Source: Cyanobacteriota bacterium (GTDB taxonomy: Bacteria; Cyanobacteriota; Cyanobacteriia; PCC-6307; Cyanobiaceae). Taken from it: DNA of 35,865 nucleotides. The translations under genes and the position numbers were made by a program. The DNA lies in the NCBI GenBank assembly GCA_026389285.1, contig JAPLID010000170.1, positions 1-35,865 of the forward strand. The letters run 5' to 3'. The notes below the pieces were generated by a model. That model saw only the letters and a program-made list of their open reading frames with translations. It had not been told where the DNA came from and made no database searches. Below are positions 4,034 to 10,850 of the stretch, piece after piece. Position 1 is the stretch's first letter. Every line of letters starts with the position of its first letter.

Positions 4034-4132
4034 GGGGATCAGGGGCCGAATCGGCGAAGCAGGCCGGAACCATAGATCAACCGAAGTTGATTGGACTGGT
4101 GCTCTGCGTCACGTCTGCGGCCTCGGCGCTGC

Positions 4133-5014
4133 ATGAGCAAGGGATTGGGAGGGTGGAGGAGGGCCCGATCCCAGCGCGATCAGGCTGCTCCACAGCGCCC
4201 GACAATCAGCTGCCGCCCGATCTGTGACACTGCCCCCCAGGATCCGCAGCTCCTGGCAAAGAGTGAAACAATCAAACCAGCCAACGCATCGTCAGTGCAG
4301 AGAATTTATTTCTATAAGCGATTGCTGATCTCCTGTATCGCCCTCATGGTCTGCTTTGGCCTGCCCGTACCTTGGAGTCGGCTGGCCTCCGTTGGTTATT
4401 TATTACTTGGGCTAGTCCTGGTTCAAGGATTATGCAGCGAACCCACAGAGACTGCGACGCGTGGCACACCGTCAAGATCCTATCGAATACTCGGCATCAG
4501 TGCAATCGCATTCTGGTTGCTGTGGACGCTGACTCCGGTCGAGATGCCCAACACCGGGATTCCGGTCATCCTGCTGTGGACGATCTTCGGTGGCTGGAGC
4601 GCCATTCGACTGATCCGGCGACTGGCCAGTGAGCGCAAGGTGAATGGAGCCGTGCTGCAGGGAGCTCTGGCGGGATACCTGATGCTCGGACTGGCCAGCG
4701 GCCTGTTGCTGTGCAGCCTGGAAACCATCCAGCCTGGCAGCTTCCGGGGTATCGACATCGGCAGCGAGGCCGCCGGCCTGACGCATTCGGTGTGGGGCCT
4801 GAACTTTGTGGGGTTGAATTACTTTGCCTTCGTCAGTCTGACCACCATGGGCTATGGCGATGTCGTGCCGATGACAGCGGCAGCCAGCATGATCTGCGTG
4901 ATGATCGCCGTGACCGGAACCTTCTACATCGCCGCGATCATGGGGATCCTGATCAGCAGGCTCACCATTCAAGAAACCGAGCAGGCGCGCCAGTCATCCC
5001 GCAACAAGCAGTAG
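4133..5014 (+). CDS. two-pore-domain-like potassium channel protein (Ion_trans_2)
   Basis: The C-terminal half is a K+ channel pore module. A pore helix NYFAFVSL leads into the selectivity filter TTMGYGDVVP and is followed by the inner helix MICVMIAVTGTFYIAAIMGILISRL. Upstream are four hydrophobic segments (around LLISCIALMVCFGLPV, VGYLLLGLVLVQG, ILGISAIAFWLLWTL and IPVILLWTIFGGW) and a fifth before the pore (LMLGLASGLLLCSL). No RCK/TrkA-N domain follows; the tail is about 20 polar residues. The start is uncertain: ATG 4133 gives 293 residues with a basic leader, while GTG 4295 would begin just before the first membrane segment. ATG 4346 would cut that segment and was rejected. Confidence 0.8.
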   Translation: MSKGLGGWRRARSQRDQAAPQRPTISCRPICDTAPQDPQLLAKSETIKPANASSVQRIYFYKRLLISCIALMVCFGLPVPWSRLASVGYLLLGLVLVQGLCSEPTETATRGTPSRSYRILGISAIAFWLLWTLTPVEMPNTGIPVILLWTIFGGWSAIRLIRRLASERKVNGAVLQGALAGYLMLGLASGLLLCSLETIQPGSFRGIDIGSEAAGLTHSVWGLNFVGLNYFAFVSLTTMGYGDVVPMTAAASMICVMIAVTGTFYIAAIMGILISRLTIQETEQARQSSRNKQ

Positions 5015-5031
5015 CGCCAAGCAGCGCTACT
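5010..5031. terminator. hairpin at the 3' end of the channel gene
   Basis: AGTAGCGC (5010-5017) and GCGCTACT (5024-5031) are perfect 8-base complements around a 6-base loop. The left arm contains the channel stop codon. There is no T run, so the termination role is inferred from its place between two converging genes. Confidence 0.45.
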
Positions 5032-5191
5032 CGCCCTGAGCGCCGCCGCGGGCCACCGCTGAGGAGGCAGGATCGCCGCATTGAGGATGTTGATCGTCGT
5101 CACCTCCTGGCGGAAGGAGGCGGGGCTGACCGCGATCGTGTCGACCGGCAGGCGCCAGCAATGCGAAGTTTTGCCCAGCACGCGCAGCGGA

Positions 5192-5470
5192 TCAGGCTGG
5201 CCAGGGCAGAGGGCAGAGCAACTGCACCGGTCTGCGGATGGTGCGCCAGTCGCCATTGCTGGTGCTCACCTCCAGACCGATCGAAGCCTGGCTGGCATCG
5301 GGCTCGGGATCAAGGCCATCCAGCCAGCCGACGGCATCGCAAATGGCCTCTTCGATCGAGTCATAGAGACCGTCGAGGTGGGGATGGGGCTGGAGGAACG
5401 CGTCAATCAACCGGTAAGCCCGGGTCGCAGGCTGGGACGTCAAAAGCAGATGAGCATTCAGGGATTCCAT
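5192..5470 (-). CDS. hypothetical protein, probably truncated by a frameshift
   Basis: ATG at 5470 has a GAGGG-type ribosome-binding site about 8 nt upstream. The 92-residue product begins MESLNAHLLLTSQPATRAYR and ends at TGA after LLCPLPWPA. From about 5215 leftwards the coding signal moves to another frame: the sequence reading PDPLRVLGKTSHCWRLPVDT and onward to about 5065 uses almost only G/C-ending codons without a stop. This suggests one gene whose second half is out of frame, through a real indel or a sequencing error. The product is soluble and acidic in its middle (EEAICDAVGWLDGLDPEPD). I do not recognise the family. Confidence 0.5.
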   Translation of the reverse strand: MESLNAHLLLTSQPATRAYRLIDAFLQPHPHLDGLYDSIEEAICDAVGWLDGLDPEPDASQASIGLEVSTSNGDWRTIRRPVQLLCPLPWPA

Positions 5471-5736
5471 CACTCGACCCTCATGGGAGATGCATTCTGG
5501 ACGCTGTGCCAGATGCAAGACTGTCATCCATAACACCGTCAACTGTGCTCGCAGCCCTCTGAGCGGATCTGCATCAGTCCATGGCCTGAGATTCGGACTG
5601 GCGGACCTTGCTCCATCACCCTGGCGGCCTCAACTCCTGCAGGAGGACAAGTTCAATCTCAGGGATGATCGATCAGATGCTGATGATGCCCTGTCCATCC
5701 AGACCCAGGCAGAACGATTGCCCATGCCTGGCCCCC
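5471..5736. other. intergenic spacer downstream of the polyketide synthase
   Basis: About 265 bases between the type III polyketide synthase stop and the hypothetical gene start. No reading frame with codon bias and no strong hairpin was seen. The promoter of the hypothetical gene should lie at its left side. Confidence 0.3.
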
Positions 5737-6870
5737 TCACACGAGCAGGGCCACCTCGACGCAAAGGCCCGGCCCGAAGGCCATCGCCAGGCAGGGGCCG
5801 GTAGCGCCGCTGCGCCGCAAGCGCTCAAGGATGAACAGCAAGGTCGGCGAGGACATGTTGCCGCAGTCCCGCAGCACCGAGCGGGAGGGCTCGATCAGGG
5901 CGGGATCGAGCCCCAGGCTCTCCGTCACCGCCGAGAGGATGCGGGGGCCTCCGGGATGCACCGCCCAGCAACCGATGGCCGCGAGCGTGAACCCTTGCTT
6001 TGCCAGCCACCGTTCCAGCCAGGGCCTCAGATGCTCGGCAATCAGATCGGGAACCTGGGGGGACAGACCCATGACGAAGCCGTGATCCTCGATCGCCCAG
6101 GACATGGCGCCGGAGCTGGCGGGCACCAGCAGCGAACCGCTGGCGATCAGTCGCCGCAGCCCCGGCGCGGCCGGAGCCGCGATTGCCGACAGCTTCGTTG
6201 CCGACATCTCGGTTGACGGCGCCCCAACGGAAGCCACCAGGGCGGCGGCGCCGTCGGCGAACAGGGCATTGGCCACGATCCGCTCCCCCTCCCAGCCGTA
6301 CTGCAGATGCAGGCTGCAGAGTTCAACCGCGCAGAGCAGCACGCAGGCCCCGGGATCGGCGCCGGTGAAGCCGGCCGCCACCCGCAGACCGTTGAGGGCG
6401 GCGTGACACCCCATGAAGCCCACGTGGGTGCGGGCCACGTCAGCGGGCAGCGGCAGGGCGGCCATCAGGGCAAGATCGACGCCCGGGGCATGGAAGCCGG
6501 TGCAGGAAACCGTGATCAGATGGGTGATCCGTTCGGGGGGAACCTGCGCCTGCTCCAGGGCCGCCCGCACGGCCCGCAGGGCGAGGGGCGGGGCCTCCTG
6601 GCTGTAGCGGCGCATGCGCTCGCCGGTGCCGGGGCTGGTGGGGCCGAAAAAGCTCTGCTCACTGCCGGAGTTCAGGCCGGTGAGGTCCTCCAGCACGACG
6701 TGGCGTGCGCCGACCCCCGAACGGCGATGCAGGGTCTCCAGCAGCCGGTATCTGGAGGGGGAAGGCACCTGCTCGGGCAGGGCCACCCGGGCCGCAATCG
6801 CCGTGGCATCCCCCTGGTTGAGGCGATGGGGGGGCAGGGCCGTGCCCAGGCCGTGAATCGTCAGGGACAT
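5737..6870 (-). CDS. type III polyketide synthase (chalcone/alkylresorcinol synthase family)
   Basis: This homodimeric, ACP-independent ketosynthase condenses an acyl starter with malonyl-CoA. The 377-residue product has the family length and all three catalytic residues: Cys in TVSCTGFHAPGVD, His in WAVHPGGPRIL, Asn in RDCGNMSSPT. The C-terminal GFGPG-like loop reads AFGPGLCVE. ATG at 6870 overlaps the stop of the upstream oxidoreductase gene by 10 nt, indicating translational coupling. Together with that gene and the methyltransferase it matches the three-gene hierridin (hid) loci of picocyanobacteria and, in content, the Streptomyces srs phenolic-lipid operon. The product is therefore probably an alkylresorcinol made from a fatty acyl starter, but starter specificity cannot be read from sequence. 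Confidence 0.92.
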   Translation of the reverse strand: MSLTIHGLGTALPPHRLNQGDATAIAARVALPEQVPSPSRYRLLETLHRRSGVGARHVVLEDLTGLNSGSEQSFFGPTSPGTGERMRRYSQEAPPLALRAVRAALEQAQVPPERITHLITVSCTGFHAPGVDLALMAALPLPADVARTHVGFMGCHAALNGLRVAAGFTGADPGACVLLCAVELCSLHLQYGWEGERIVANALFADGAAALVASVGAPSTEMSATKLSAIAAPAAPGLRRLIASGSLLVPASSGAMSWAIEDHGFVMGLSPQVPDLIAEHLRPWLERWLAKQGFTLAAIGCWAVHPGGPRILSAVTESLGLDPALIEPSRSVLRDCGNMSSPTLLFILERLRRSGATGPCLAMAFGPGLCVEVALLV

Positions 6871-8015
6871 GGCTCTGGGGTGCTCCGTTGCAGGGTGGCA
6901 CCATCGAGATGCTGGAGCAGGGGTGCGGCCGCGGCCGGCCAGCGCCCGGCCGCGGCCAGCAGGGTCCGGCTCAGGCCGGGTCGCCGCAGGGCGAAGGCCA
7001 GGCCATGGCAGAAGCGCTGCCGCGTCCCGATCCGCAGCGCATGGCGGCGGGCCCATTGCCGCTCGAGCCCCCGGCTCCACTCGCTTTGCCCCTGCAGCAC
7101 CAGGGGTACGACCGCCAGAGCCCCCACCAGGGCCCAGCCCATGCCCTCGCCGGTGAACGGCTCCACATAGCCGGCGGCATCACCCAGCAACAGCAACCGC
7201 TCGGCGGCTGGGGGCGTGCTGCGGCGGGTGAGGGCCGGGGTGGCCCGCCAAGGCGCAGCAGCAAGCTGGGGGAGCGGATCGAAGCCAGCTTCGGCCAGCA
7301 CGTCGGCGGCGCTGGCGGCTGGACCGCCGGCCGCGATCAGCTGGGGCCGATCGAAGGCTGCCGCCAGGTTGAGCGCGCCCGCTTCGTTGCGCACCAGGCC
7401 CACGTAGCCATGGCGGCCGATGGCCATGTGAATCGTGCCCCCGCCGTAGCCCTTCACGCCGGCATCCAGCTCGCAACCGGCGCCGATCCTGGCCCGGGGG
7501 TTGATCCGCATCCGGATCGGCAGATCGGCGGCCAGGCCGGGACTGCCCAGCCCCGTGGCCACCAGCACGACCCTGGCACTGGTGGTCTGAAGCCCGGCAC
7601 CGGAGCGCAACAGCACCTCCCGGCCCCCGGGACAGGTCCCAGCCACGGTGGCTTCGGTCTGCGCGTACAACACGGCGCCAGCGGCGACGGCGGCCTCGCT
7701 CAAGGCCAGGTCAAGGCGGCCCCGGGACAAAGAGCGGCCCGCCGGCAGGGCGAGCTCCACCTGAAGACCTGGCAGGCCGAGGCGGATGCGCTCCAGGGAA
7801 GCCGCCCCAAGGTCATCGACCAGATGGCCCAGTCCCGCCTGCTCCAGGGCCCTGAGGGCCACGCCATTAAGGCAGCTGCCGCAGATCTTCCAGCGAGGAA
7901 AGGCCCGCTTCTCCACCAGCAGCACCCGCAGGCGGTAAGACGCCAACTGGTGGGCGGCCAGGGCACCGGCGGGTCCGGCGCCGATCACGATCACGTCCCA
8001 GTCCGGAGCGCTCAT
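6861..8015 (-). CDS. FAD-dependent oxidoreductase of the phenolic-lipid cluster
   Basis: A 384-residue flavoprotein of the geranylgeranyl-reductase/PHBH-like superfamily. It has the N-terminal dinucleotide fold DVIVIGAGPAGALAAHQLAS, then VLLVEKRAFPRWKICGSCLN, where the Cys-containing motif replaces the usual PR-x-K-x-C-G. The C-terminal FAD motif is LLLLGDAAGYVEPFTGEGMG. By analogy with SrsC or the hid oxidoreductase it probably hydroxylates or otherwise modifies the aromatic ring of the polyketide. ATG at 8015 overlaps the methyltransferase stop as ATGA, so the longer start at 8051 is unlikely. Its 3' end overlaps the polyketide synthase start. Confidence 0.85.
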   Translation of the reverse strand: MSAPDWDVIVIGAGPAGALAAHQLASYRLRVLLVEKRAFPRWKICGSCLNGVALRALEQAGLGHLVDDLGAASLERIRLGLPGLQVELALPAGRSLSRGRLDLALSEAAVAAGAVLYAQTEATVAGTCPGGREVLLRSGAGLQTTSARVVLVATGLGSPGLAADLPIRMRINPRARIGAGCELDAGVKGYGGGTIHMAIGRHGYVGLVRNEAGALNLAAAFDRPQLIAAGGPAASAADVLAEAGFDPLPQLAAAPWRATPALTRRSTPPAAERLLLLGDAAGYVEPFTGEGMGWALVGALAVVPLVLQGQSEWSRGLERQWARRHALRIGTRQRFCHGLAFALRRPGLSRTLLAAAGRWPAAAAPLLQHLDGATLQRSTPEPCP

Positions 8016-8746
8016 CGATCCTGGGGCAGGCCGTCCGGACGGTGCCAGCACAGCACGTAGCGCTCGGGCCAGCTGCGCCGGAGATCGGCCCCCACGAGGC
8101 CCGCCCGGACCGCCAGGGCCCGCACCTCCGCCAACTGAAAAGCGCCCTGCACCGAGACCGGGCCATCGAAATGAACGATCGGGGAGCGACTCAGCAAGCG
8201 GCAGCCCGCCCAGGCCAGCCCATAGCCCAGGGGACTACGGATCAGGTCATTAACCAACACCAGGCCACGGCTGACACGACCCATCCGCCCCAGCAGATCC
8301 ACCGCCTCCGGCTCGTCGAGATGGTGCAAGAACAGGGTGCAGAGAATGACGTCGTAGTCGTCGGGCAGGGGATCGTTGAGGGCATCAAGCTGAAAGAAAC
8401 TGGCGCCCAGTCCCCGCTCCTCGGCGCTGCGGGCGGCGATGGCCACCGCCTGCGCACTGAGATCGCAACCGTCGACCCGGAGGTCGAGTCCTGCGCGGAG
8501 GGCCCGTTCCGCCAGAGCGGTGGTGTTGTCGCCGCCGCCGCAGGCCAGATCCAGCACCCGCAGGGGGCGCCCGGAGCGCTCGCGGGCCAGGGAACGGATC
8601 GGAGCCAACAGGGAGCCAACGGCGCCGCTGAAGGCGTTGATCCGGCGCAGACCCTGCAGGGCCTGGCTATGGGCGACGGGATCAATGCCGGGCTGATCCA
8701 TCCACTCGGGTTGCCGGTGGCGCTGGGCCAGTGGCTGGGGAAGCAT
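8012..8746 (-). CDS. class I SAM-dependent methyltransferase of the phenolic-lipid cluster
   Basis: The 244-residue product has the class I methyltransferase core: motif I VLDLACGGGDNTTALAER, the acidic end of strand 2 (VDGCDLSAQA), the segment FFQLDALNDPLPDDYDVIL, and post-motif LHHLDEPEAVDLLGRM. It is the first gene of the cluster and would methylate a hydroxyl or ring carbon of the resorcinol, as SrsB and the hid methyltransferase do. ATG at 8746 was chosen because the 44 extra residues of the longer frame would run into the divergent cobL start region and lack conserved features. No Shine-Dalgarno is evident. The 144-base gap to cobL must hold two divergent promoters. Confidence 0.85.
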   Translation of the reverse strand: MLPQPLAQRHRQPEWMDQPGIDPVAHSQALQGLRRINAFSGAVGSLLAPIRSLARERSGRPLRVLDLACGGGDNTTALAERALRAGLDLRVDGCDLSAQAVAIAARSAEERGLGASFFQLDALNDPLPDDYDVILCTLFLHHLDEPEAVDLLGRMGRVSRGLVLVNDLIRSPLGYGLAWAGCRLLSRSPIVHFDGPVSVQGAFQLAEVRALAVRAGLVGADLRRSWPERYVLCWHRPDGLPQDR

Positions 8747-8890
8747 TAAGGGAGAACGCGGAGAAAGAAGAGGCCGGGGCAGCGAAATGGGCTCGAGCAG
8801 GTCCGTGGCTCTGGATATTGACGCTAAGGCCGCTTCCAGGATCCGTTGCCGGAAAAGATCAGCCCTGGCCTGGAACACGGCCTGGGCATC

Positions 8891-10249
8891 ATGGAGCCCC
8901 CGACAAGGGACACCCTGGCCAGCACGGTGACAGCGAACGAGACCGGAGTGATCAACGTGATCGGCACCGATGCCGGCGGCCTGGCGGGCCTGAGCGCTGC
9001 CAGGCTGGCCATGGTGCGTGATGCGCTCCTGGTGCTGGCGCCGAAGCGGCTGTTGCCGGAGCTAGTCCCCTGGTGGCAGGTTGAACAAGCGGCCGGACGG
9101 GTGCCTGCGGCGAGCCCCTGCCCGGAACAGCTGGCCAGCGACAAGCCCGAACGGATCTTCGAACCGCTGCGTTCCGCCCTGGCCGCAGGCCAGAGGGTGG
9201 TGCTGCTGGCCAGCGGCGATCCCCTCTGGTTCGGCATCGGCCGGCTGCTGCTGCAGGAGTTTCCGCCCGAACAACTGCGCTTCCACCCAGCTCCCGCCAG
9301 CCTGCAGCTGGCCTTTGCCCGCCTCGGGCGGCCCTGGCAGGACGCCAGCTGGATCAGCCTGCATGGCCGCGACCCCGAGCCCCTGGTGGCGGCCCTGCAG
9401 AAACGTCCACCGGCGCTGGCGGTGCTCACCGACCCCCAGCGCGGCGGCGCCCAGGCCGTGCGGCTGATGCTGCGCGCCTCAGGGCTGGAGGCCGCCTATG
9501 GGGTCTGGCTGGGCGAGCGGCTGGGCCATGCCGAGGAGCGGATGACGCGACTCGTCCCGGGCGATCCGCTGCCGGCTGATCTGGATCCCCTGCATCTGGT
9601 GTTGCTGGTGGCGGAGCCCGCCCCGGCACCGAATCCCGAGAAGCTGCCCCTGTTCGGCATCGCCGATGGCCTCTGGCTCCAACACGACGACCAACCGGGC
9701 CTGATGACCAAGCGCGAGGTGCGCATCCAGCTGCTGGCCGATCTGGAGCTGCCCGAGGCCGGTGTGCTCTGGGATGTGGGCGCCGGCGTCGGCTCGGTGG
9801 GGCTGGAGGCGCTGCGGCTGCGGCCCGGCCTGGCCCTCTGGGCGGTGGAACGCCGCGCCGGTGCCGCCGCCCTGATCAGCGCCAATGCCGAGCGGCTGGG
9901 GGTCACGCCAGCGGGAGTGGTGGAAGGAGCCGCCCCGGAGGCCCTGGCGGCCCTGCCGGATCCAGATCGGGTGCTGCTCGGCGGCGGCGGCCGCGATCGG
10001 GCCGCGCTGCTGGAGACAGTGCTGGGGCGGTTGCGGCCCGGTGGTCTGGTGGTGATCCCCATGGCCACCGTCGAGGCCCTGGCCGAGCTGCGGCCGCGGC
10101 TGGAAGCCGCCGGACTGACGGTGAGCGTTTCTCAGCACCAGGCCTGGCGCGGGGCGCCCCTGGCCGATGGCACCCGGCTGGCGCCGCTCAATCCGGTGCT
10201 GGTTCTCAGCGGGCGGAAGGGCCCGGTCCAGGGGAGCCAGCCGGCTTGA
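8891..10249 (+). CDS. cobL: precorrin-6Y C5,15-methyltransferase (decarboxylating), CobL/CbiET
   Basis: A bifunctional enzyme of cobalamin (in cyanobacteria usually pseudocobalamin) synthesis that methylates C5 and C15 and removes the acetate carboxyl at C12. The N-terminal CbiE-type half has VINVIGTDAGGLAGLS and VVLLASGDPLWFGIGRLL. The C-terminal CbiT-type half begins near LMTKREVRIQLLADLEL and has the SAM motif VLWDVGAGVGSVGLEALRL and the strand DRVLLGGGGRDR. The 452-residue length fits the fused form. Starts at 8846 and at an internal GTG near 8948 are possible. No other cob gene is adjacent. The last 44 bases overlap the 3' end of the converging DUF192 gene. Confidence 0.92.
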   Translation: MEPPTRDTLASTVTANETGVINVIGTDAGGLAGLSAARLAMVRDALLVLAPKRLLPELVPWWQVEQAAGRVPAASPCPEQLASDKPERIFEPLRSALAAGQRVVLLASGDPLWFGIGRLLLQEFPPEQLRFHPAPASLQLAFARLGRPWQDASWISLHGRDPEPLVAALQKRPPALAVLTDPQRGGAQAVRLMLRASGLEAAYGVWLGERLGHAEERMTRLVPGDPLPADLDPLHLVLLVAEPAPAPNPEKLPLFGIADGLWLQHDDQPGLMTKREVRIQLLADLELPEAGVLWDVGAGVGSVGLEALRLRPGLALWAVERRAGAAALISANAERLGVTPAGVVEGAAPEALAALPDPDRVLLGGGGRDRAALLETVLGRLRPGGLVVIPMATVEALAELRPRLEAAGLTVSVSQHQAWRGAPLADGTRLAPLNPVLVLSGRKGPVQGSQPA

Positions 10250-10850
10250 GGGATTCGATGCGAAGCGCCGTTCCCACCCCGATCCCCAGAGCCGCCGCCT
10301 GACCGGCGCCGATCTCCAGCACCCCATCCACCACCACATCGGGCCCGTAGCTGCGGCAGGGCAGGCGCATGCAGGGGGCCGACGGCGCCACGACCTGGAT
10401 CACCTTCCCCGCCCGGACGAACAGCATGTCGAGCGGTTCCGGGGTCTGGTGCATCCAGAAGCGAGCCACCGCCGGCGGCTGGTAGCCGAACCACATCCCC
10501 TGCAGCTGCGGCAGGGGGCCGCGGCGCTGCAGCCCCATGGCGTACTGCCGGTCGCTGCGGGGCACCTCCAAGGCGATGCAGACCGGCCGGACCGCCTGGG
10601 GTGCTTCCAGACAGGCGCGGGCCGTGATCGGCAGCTGCTGGGGCGGGGGGCCGTCGGCAGCGGCGGGGGGATTGGTAGCAGCTGGGGTCGCGGCCCTGGC
10701 GGCGGTCCAGGAACCGTCGAAGGGGGCGAGTGCCAGCAGGGAAGCAGAAACCAGCCAGAGAGGGGCGTTCAGCCGGAAGAAGTCCATCAACCAACTGTTG
10801 GGTGTCTGCTGCGAAGGAGCAGCTTTCTGAAAGGAATCGATCGGGCTCAT
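10206..10850 (-). CDS. DUF192 family protein, exported
   Basis: A 214-residue protein with a hydrophobic N-terminal signal/anchor (LWLVSASLLALAPF, after about 30 residues) and an Ala/Pro-rich linker. The DUF192 domain follows: CIALEVPRSDRQYAMGLQRR, then FWMHQTPEPLDMLFVRAGKVIQV, and finally DGVLEIGAGQAAALGIGVGT. Biochemical function of the domain is unknown. Start and the response regulator stop overlap as ATGA (10850-10847), so the two are translated together. The internal ATG at 10787, just before the hydrophobic segment, is an alternative start. Its 3' end overlaps cobL on the other strand. Confidence 0.85.
   Translation of the reverse strand: MSPIDSFQKAAPSQQTPNSWLMDFFRLNAPLWLVSASLLALAPFDGSWTAARAATPAATNPPAAADGPPPQQLPITARACLEAPQAVRPVCIALEVPRSDRQYAMGLQRRGPLPQLQGMWFGYQPPAVARFWMHQTPEPLDMLFVRAGKVIQVVAPSAPCMRLPCRSYGPDVVVDGVLEIGAGQAAALGIGVGTALRIESLKPAGSPGPGPSAR

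Follow-up and report, generated by a model that had tools for sequence, protein, structure and literature searches.

A probable hierridin-type operon with a resorcinol-type polyketide synthase in a Cyanobiaceae genome

The window considered here, the whole stretch of 35,865 nucleotides analyzed from a Cyanobiaceae genome (contig JAPLID010000170.1), carries three adjoining genes that most probably form an intact hid-type (hierridin-type) operon with a resorcinol as its product, a reading to which we assign a probability of roughly 0.88. That the methyltransferase and the flavoenzyme perform exactly the steps of the hierridin B pathway is a separate proposition, which we favor with appreciably less assurance. 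The likeness to hierridin loci remarked on in the earlier note is borne out, as the gene set, the gene order, the overlaps, and the PKS residues equal those published for hidABC (PMC8086630, PMC10896814). The operon type has thus already been described, and the copy reported here is an ordinary one that extends a widespread picocyanobacterial lipid pathway by one species.

The operon consists of three complete open reading frames in the order methyltransferase, FAD-dependent enzyme, and type III polyketide synthase (PKS), referred to below as A-B-C (Table 1), and their coordinates and Pfam matches confirm the earlier description of three genes joined by overlaps of 4 and 10 bases. Longer frames with GTG starts are possible for the FAD and PKS genes; in the alignments of relatives the conserved starts are ATG. 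According to locus coordinates, the 4-base overlap is common to ten of the closest loci (L033, L034, L037-L044), and the 10-base overlap is found in 38 of the 53 Cyanobiaceae loci with A-B-C order, a recurrence indicating that the arrangement is not due to chance. The HidA-like protein scores 234 bits against NF004851, for which the cut-off is 243, and is 52–84% identical to the HidA proteins of Cyanobiaceae relatives with A-B-C order and 32% identical to that of the divergent locus L081.

Table 1. Genes of the hid-type operon and their overlaps, in window coordinates.
Feature	Coordinates	Strand	Pfam match (E-value)
HidA-like class I SAM methyltransferase, 244 aa, first operon gene, ATG start	8012..8746	-	Methyltransf_25 (3.2e-17)
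HidB-like FAD-dependent enzyme, 384 aa	6861..8015	-	FAD_binding_3 (9e-13)
HidC-like type III PKS, 377 aa	5737..6870	-	Chal_sti_synt_N/C (5e-21 and 8e-23)
hidA-like/hidB-like stop/start overlap, 4 bases (ATGA)	8012..8015	-	
hidB-like/hidC-like overlap, 10 bases	6861..6870	-	

A residue test on the PKS provides a direct sequence reason to expect resorcinols rather than pyrones across the whole operon family. The catalytic triad is intact, as had been stated previously, with Cys155, His305, and Asn338 invariant in the aligned relatives. Cyclization is controlled by ArsB Trp281 in resorcinol formation versus ArsC Gly284 in pyrone formation, and exchange of these residues is instructive: in ArsB W281G resorcinol formation is lost and pyrones appear, and ArsC G284W acquires the ability to form resorcinols (reviewed in PMC6274091). 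Alignment to wild-type ArsC (3vs8, Gly) and to the G284W enzyme (3vs9, Trp) places Trp258 of the window PKS at this position, and a resorcinol product was predicted from the same Trp by workers on Streptomyces (PMC9927152). Met267 aligns with CHS Phe265, where Met is a conserved mark of the HidC clade, clade 3.2222 (PMC8086630). Of 60 PKSs encoded in Cyanobiaceae genomes, 59 have the Trp and 59 the Met; among the 80 named relatives, Trp is universal and Met is present in 76. The single Cyanobiaceae exception (L085) represents another PKS, which the tree places with PKS18. The PKS of a Gimesia relative (L096), 49% identical to the window PKS, shares both residues. In a tree of 102 PKSs built without HidC and SrsA, the window PKS is nested in a Cyanobiaceae clade of 29 sequences (SH-aLRT 100) that sits inside a wider group of A-B-C operons including Gimesia; the placements of ArsC and plant CHS, both on very long branches, are unsafe and were disregarded.

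For the flavoenzyme, the evidence from sequence models and from predicted structure points in different directions. The earlier note had assigned this protein to the geranylgeranyl-reductase-like group and regarded it as not clearly a classical hydroxylase. The first assignment holds insofar as the best sequence model belongs to the geranylgeranyl reductase superfamily, and all 18 aligned HidB relatives match the same models; the match is nonetheless weak, since TIGR02032 scores 90.8 bits and its curated cut-off of 158.8 is not reached. The second is weakened by the predicted structure (pLDDT 86.8), whose closest folds are flavin halogenases and aromatic hydroxylases (TM about 0.6–0.8), among them protocatechuate and p-hydroxybenzoate hydroxylases, with 3-hydroxybenzoate 6-hydroxylase also listed. 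The TM score to PHBH-type enzymes is about 0.7, and no geranylgeranyl reductase appears among the best 50 fold matches. Class A aromatic hydroxylases have GxGxxG, DG, and GD motifs and a two-domain fold. The window HidB contains GAGPAG and the GD motif; the aspartate position of the DG motif (154) is Thr, and only 23 of 102 relatives have Asp there. Wherever the alignment covers them, a Lys43-x-Cys45-Gly46 motif, Arg98, and Asp102 show no variation. Taken together, we infer that ring hydroxylation is the likeliest reaction of HidB.

A pathway can be proposed from the residues and from the relatives. HidC would take a long fatty-acyl thioester, carried by ACP or CoA, and three malonyl units. 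A C2-C7 aldol condensation, accompanied by release of CO2, would close the ring to give a 5-alkylresorcinol. HidA would then methylate the ring, presumably by O-methylation as in hierridins, and HidB, in what is the least certain step, may, with reduced FAD and O2, introduce a hydroxyl group into the ring beside the alkyl chain. The outcome would be a methoxy-hydroquinone lipid, for example hierridin B or a homologue. Formation of hierridin B itself would require that a single methyltransferase supply two O-methyl groups, which counts against this best explanation. Chain length and ring decoration are not readable from the sequence, and nothing in the analysis shows the difference in starter chain or ring pattern that the earlier note had envisaged for this strain. 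The structure model of the PKS gives an rmsd of about 16 Å to all type III PKSs despite E-values of about 1e-29, and its domain placement is therefore too unreliable for cavity size or chain length to be deduced.

Alternative products must be weighed against this proposal. One is that the PKS makes alkylpyrones in the manner of ArsC or PKS18 and that the other two enzymes decorate a pyrone. Pyrones are the products of many bacterial type III PKSs, and PKS18, a pyrone synthase, is among the closest solved structures by sequence; a pyrone-type PKS was also one of the findings that the earlier note considered fatal to its phenolic-lipid proposal. Trp258, however, is the resorcinol-type residue, the clade excludes both PKS18 and the Ectocarpus enzyme (SH-aLRT 96), and relatives with the same operon type make alkylresorcinols (PMC10896814), so that pyrone formation appears very improbable. 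A more serious competitor, although we consider it unlikely, accepts the alkylresorcinol and differs in the later steps, with HidA a C-methyltransferase, HidB a dehydrogenase or reductase, or both, giving a C-methylated resorcinol or a quinone in place of a hierridin. When the methyltransferase and FAD genes of G. maris were added in C. glutamicum, one methylation was obtained that was probably C-linked, no hydroxylation was demonstrated, and the authors assigned no definite role to the FAD gene (PMC10896814), such that neither O-methylation nor hydroxylation follows from family membership. The superfamily of the best HidB sequence model and the degenerate DG motif are in keeping with this competitor, whereas the predicted fold argues against a reductase, and the operon of a picocyanobacterium has been tied to hierridin B, a compound with a pair of O-methyl groups and an additional hydroxyl on the ring (PMC8086630, PMC10896814).

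The predicted fold of HidB also raises the question of halogenation, as Bmp2, PltA, and ChlB4, all flavin-dependent halogenases, are among its top matches. The motif of flavin halogenases is WxWxIP. This motif is absent from the window HidB and from all 102 A-B-C relatives; the corresponding stretch is taken to be YVGLV, in which Tyr204 and Gly206 are invariant in relatives. A halogenase would account for the chlorine of hierridin C, the source of which is unknown (PMC8086630), yet hierridin B, likewise attributed to that operon, is an oxidised, unchlorinated compound, and we consider halogenation by HidB extremely improbable. A broader conjecture, to which we give little credence, is that HidB represents a flavoenzyme subfamily chemically distinct from known hydroxylases, halogenases, and geranylgeranyl reductases, with an invariant KxCG motif and with Tyr204-x-Gly206 in place of the Trp-containing motif of those families, and that its lipid quinol is a picocyanobacterial membrane redox carrier like the actinobacterial polyketide quinones and not an allelochemical. 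We retain the hierridin-type resorcinol pathway as the preferred reading.

A PKS match is present in 72 of 201 genomes of the family. The A-B-C order is kept by 53 of the 60 Cyanobiaceae loci and by 46 of the 80 named loci, several of the latter being truncated at contig ends. The three proteins diverge in step, their pairwise identities correlating with r of 0.89–0.96, as expected if they were inherited together. The nearest named relatives of the window PKS come from a Synechococcaceae MAG (85% identity) and a Lake Pavin cyanobacterial MAG (84%), with Aphanothece cf. minutissima CCALA 015 at 78%, and suggest a freshwater-type picocyanobacterium as host, whose family was taken to be Cyanobiaceae from these same relatives. 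The host genome itself (3.0 Mb in 223 contigs, 88.5% complete) shows a single type III PKS; a second match on contig C178 (31% identity, partial, E 1.4e-4), which received no score from the type III PKS C-domain family, was taken as chance. At locus L086, another genome of the same genus (G090) encodes a second type III PKS, which is ArsC-like and has both the diagnostic Trp and the diagnostic Met.

The genomic site of the operon was not encountered in 62 related loci. The operon is bordered by an ion-channel gene and a cbiET-like gene (window 4091-10250), and its flanks include genes for an MFS transporter, GAPDH, NAD kinase, and a tRNA synthetase, in addition to the ion-channel gene and the cbiET-like tetrapyrrole-methylase gene with DUF192 and a response-regulator output domain. 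No obvious extra tailoring gene is present among the flanking genes. Across 62 cyanobacterial loci, none of six flanking genes was located at 5 kb or less from the operon, the cbiET-DUF192-regulator block is itself conserved in the genus but does not adjoin the operon there, and a sister group (L037-L044, L094) has one common operon site on both sides. The unshared flanks and the common site of the sister group indicate that the operon moved in the lineage of the window or that its surroundings were rearranged.

Degenerate copies occur as well. In genome G175, of the same genus, a hidA-like start is fused in frame to the middle of a hidC-like gene from residue 103 (L045:4930-5800), a deletion scar from which hidB is gone. 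Two further copies (L078 in genome G108 and L084 in G124) are broken by frameshifts or a stop, which suggests that the pathway is being lost in some relatives. Close-spaced A-B-C operons are also found at seven loci (L111, L119, L128, L130, L135, L126, L138) labeled Elusimicrobia, Acidobacteria, Omnitrophota, Gemmatimonadetes, Halomonas, and cyanobacterial MAG SZAS LIN-3; these are mostly MAGs in which binning errors are possible, and they suggest a wider spread than the picocyanobacteria and planctomycetes of the literature. Hymenobacter and Pontibacter loci (L146, L148, L156, L157, L161, L162, L169) have the same three gene types in the order B-C-A, with the Trp and Met of the window PKS.

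Among known systems, the closest parallel is hidABC, the hierridin operon of Cyanobium sp. LEGE 06113 (Costa 2019, as described in PMC8086630 and PMC10896814), which shares the three-gene order, the HidC-clade Met at the CHS Phe265 position, and a picocyanobacterial host; the strain is different, and the likeness is drawn from the published description rather than from identity to HidC (QBC65480). The mtr-fdo-t3pks operon of Gimesia maris has the same order and proteins, an order reported for 58 planctomycete PKS genes, and the PKSs of G. maris, R. baltica, and S. maiorica produce pentadecyl- and heptadecylresorcinols in C. glutamicum; the G. maris operon belongs to another phylum and encodes what is apparently a C-methyltransferase (PMC10896814). 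By published description, the phenolic-lipid operon of Streptomyces griseus and the pkq operons of mycobacteria and Streptomyces also combine a type III PKS bearing the diagnostic Trp with a methyltransferase and an oxidoreductase and yield methoxylated alkyl hydroquinones and quinones, but their gene order is PKS-first and pkq uses a methylmalonyl extender (PMC9927152). SrsA and HidC are placed in separate PKS clades, 2.22 and 3.22, respectively (PMC8086630).
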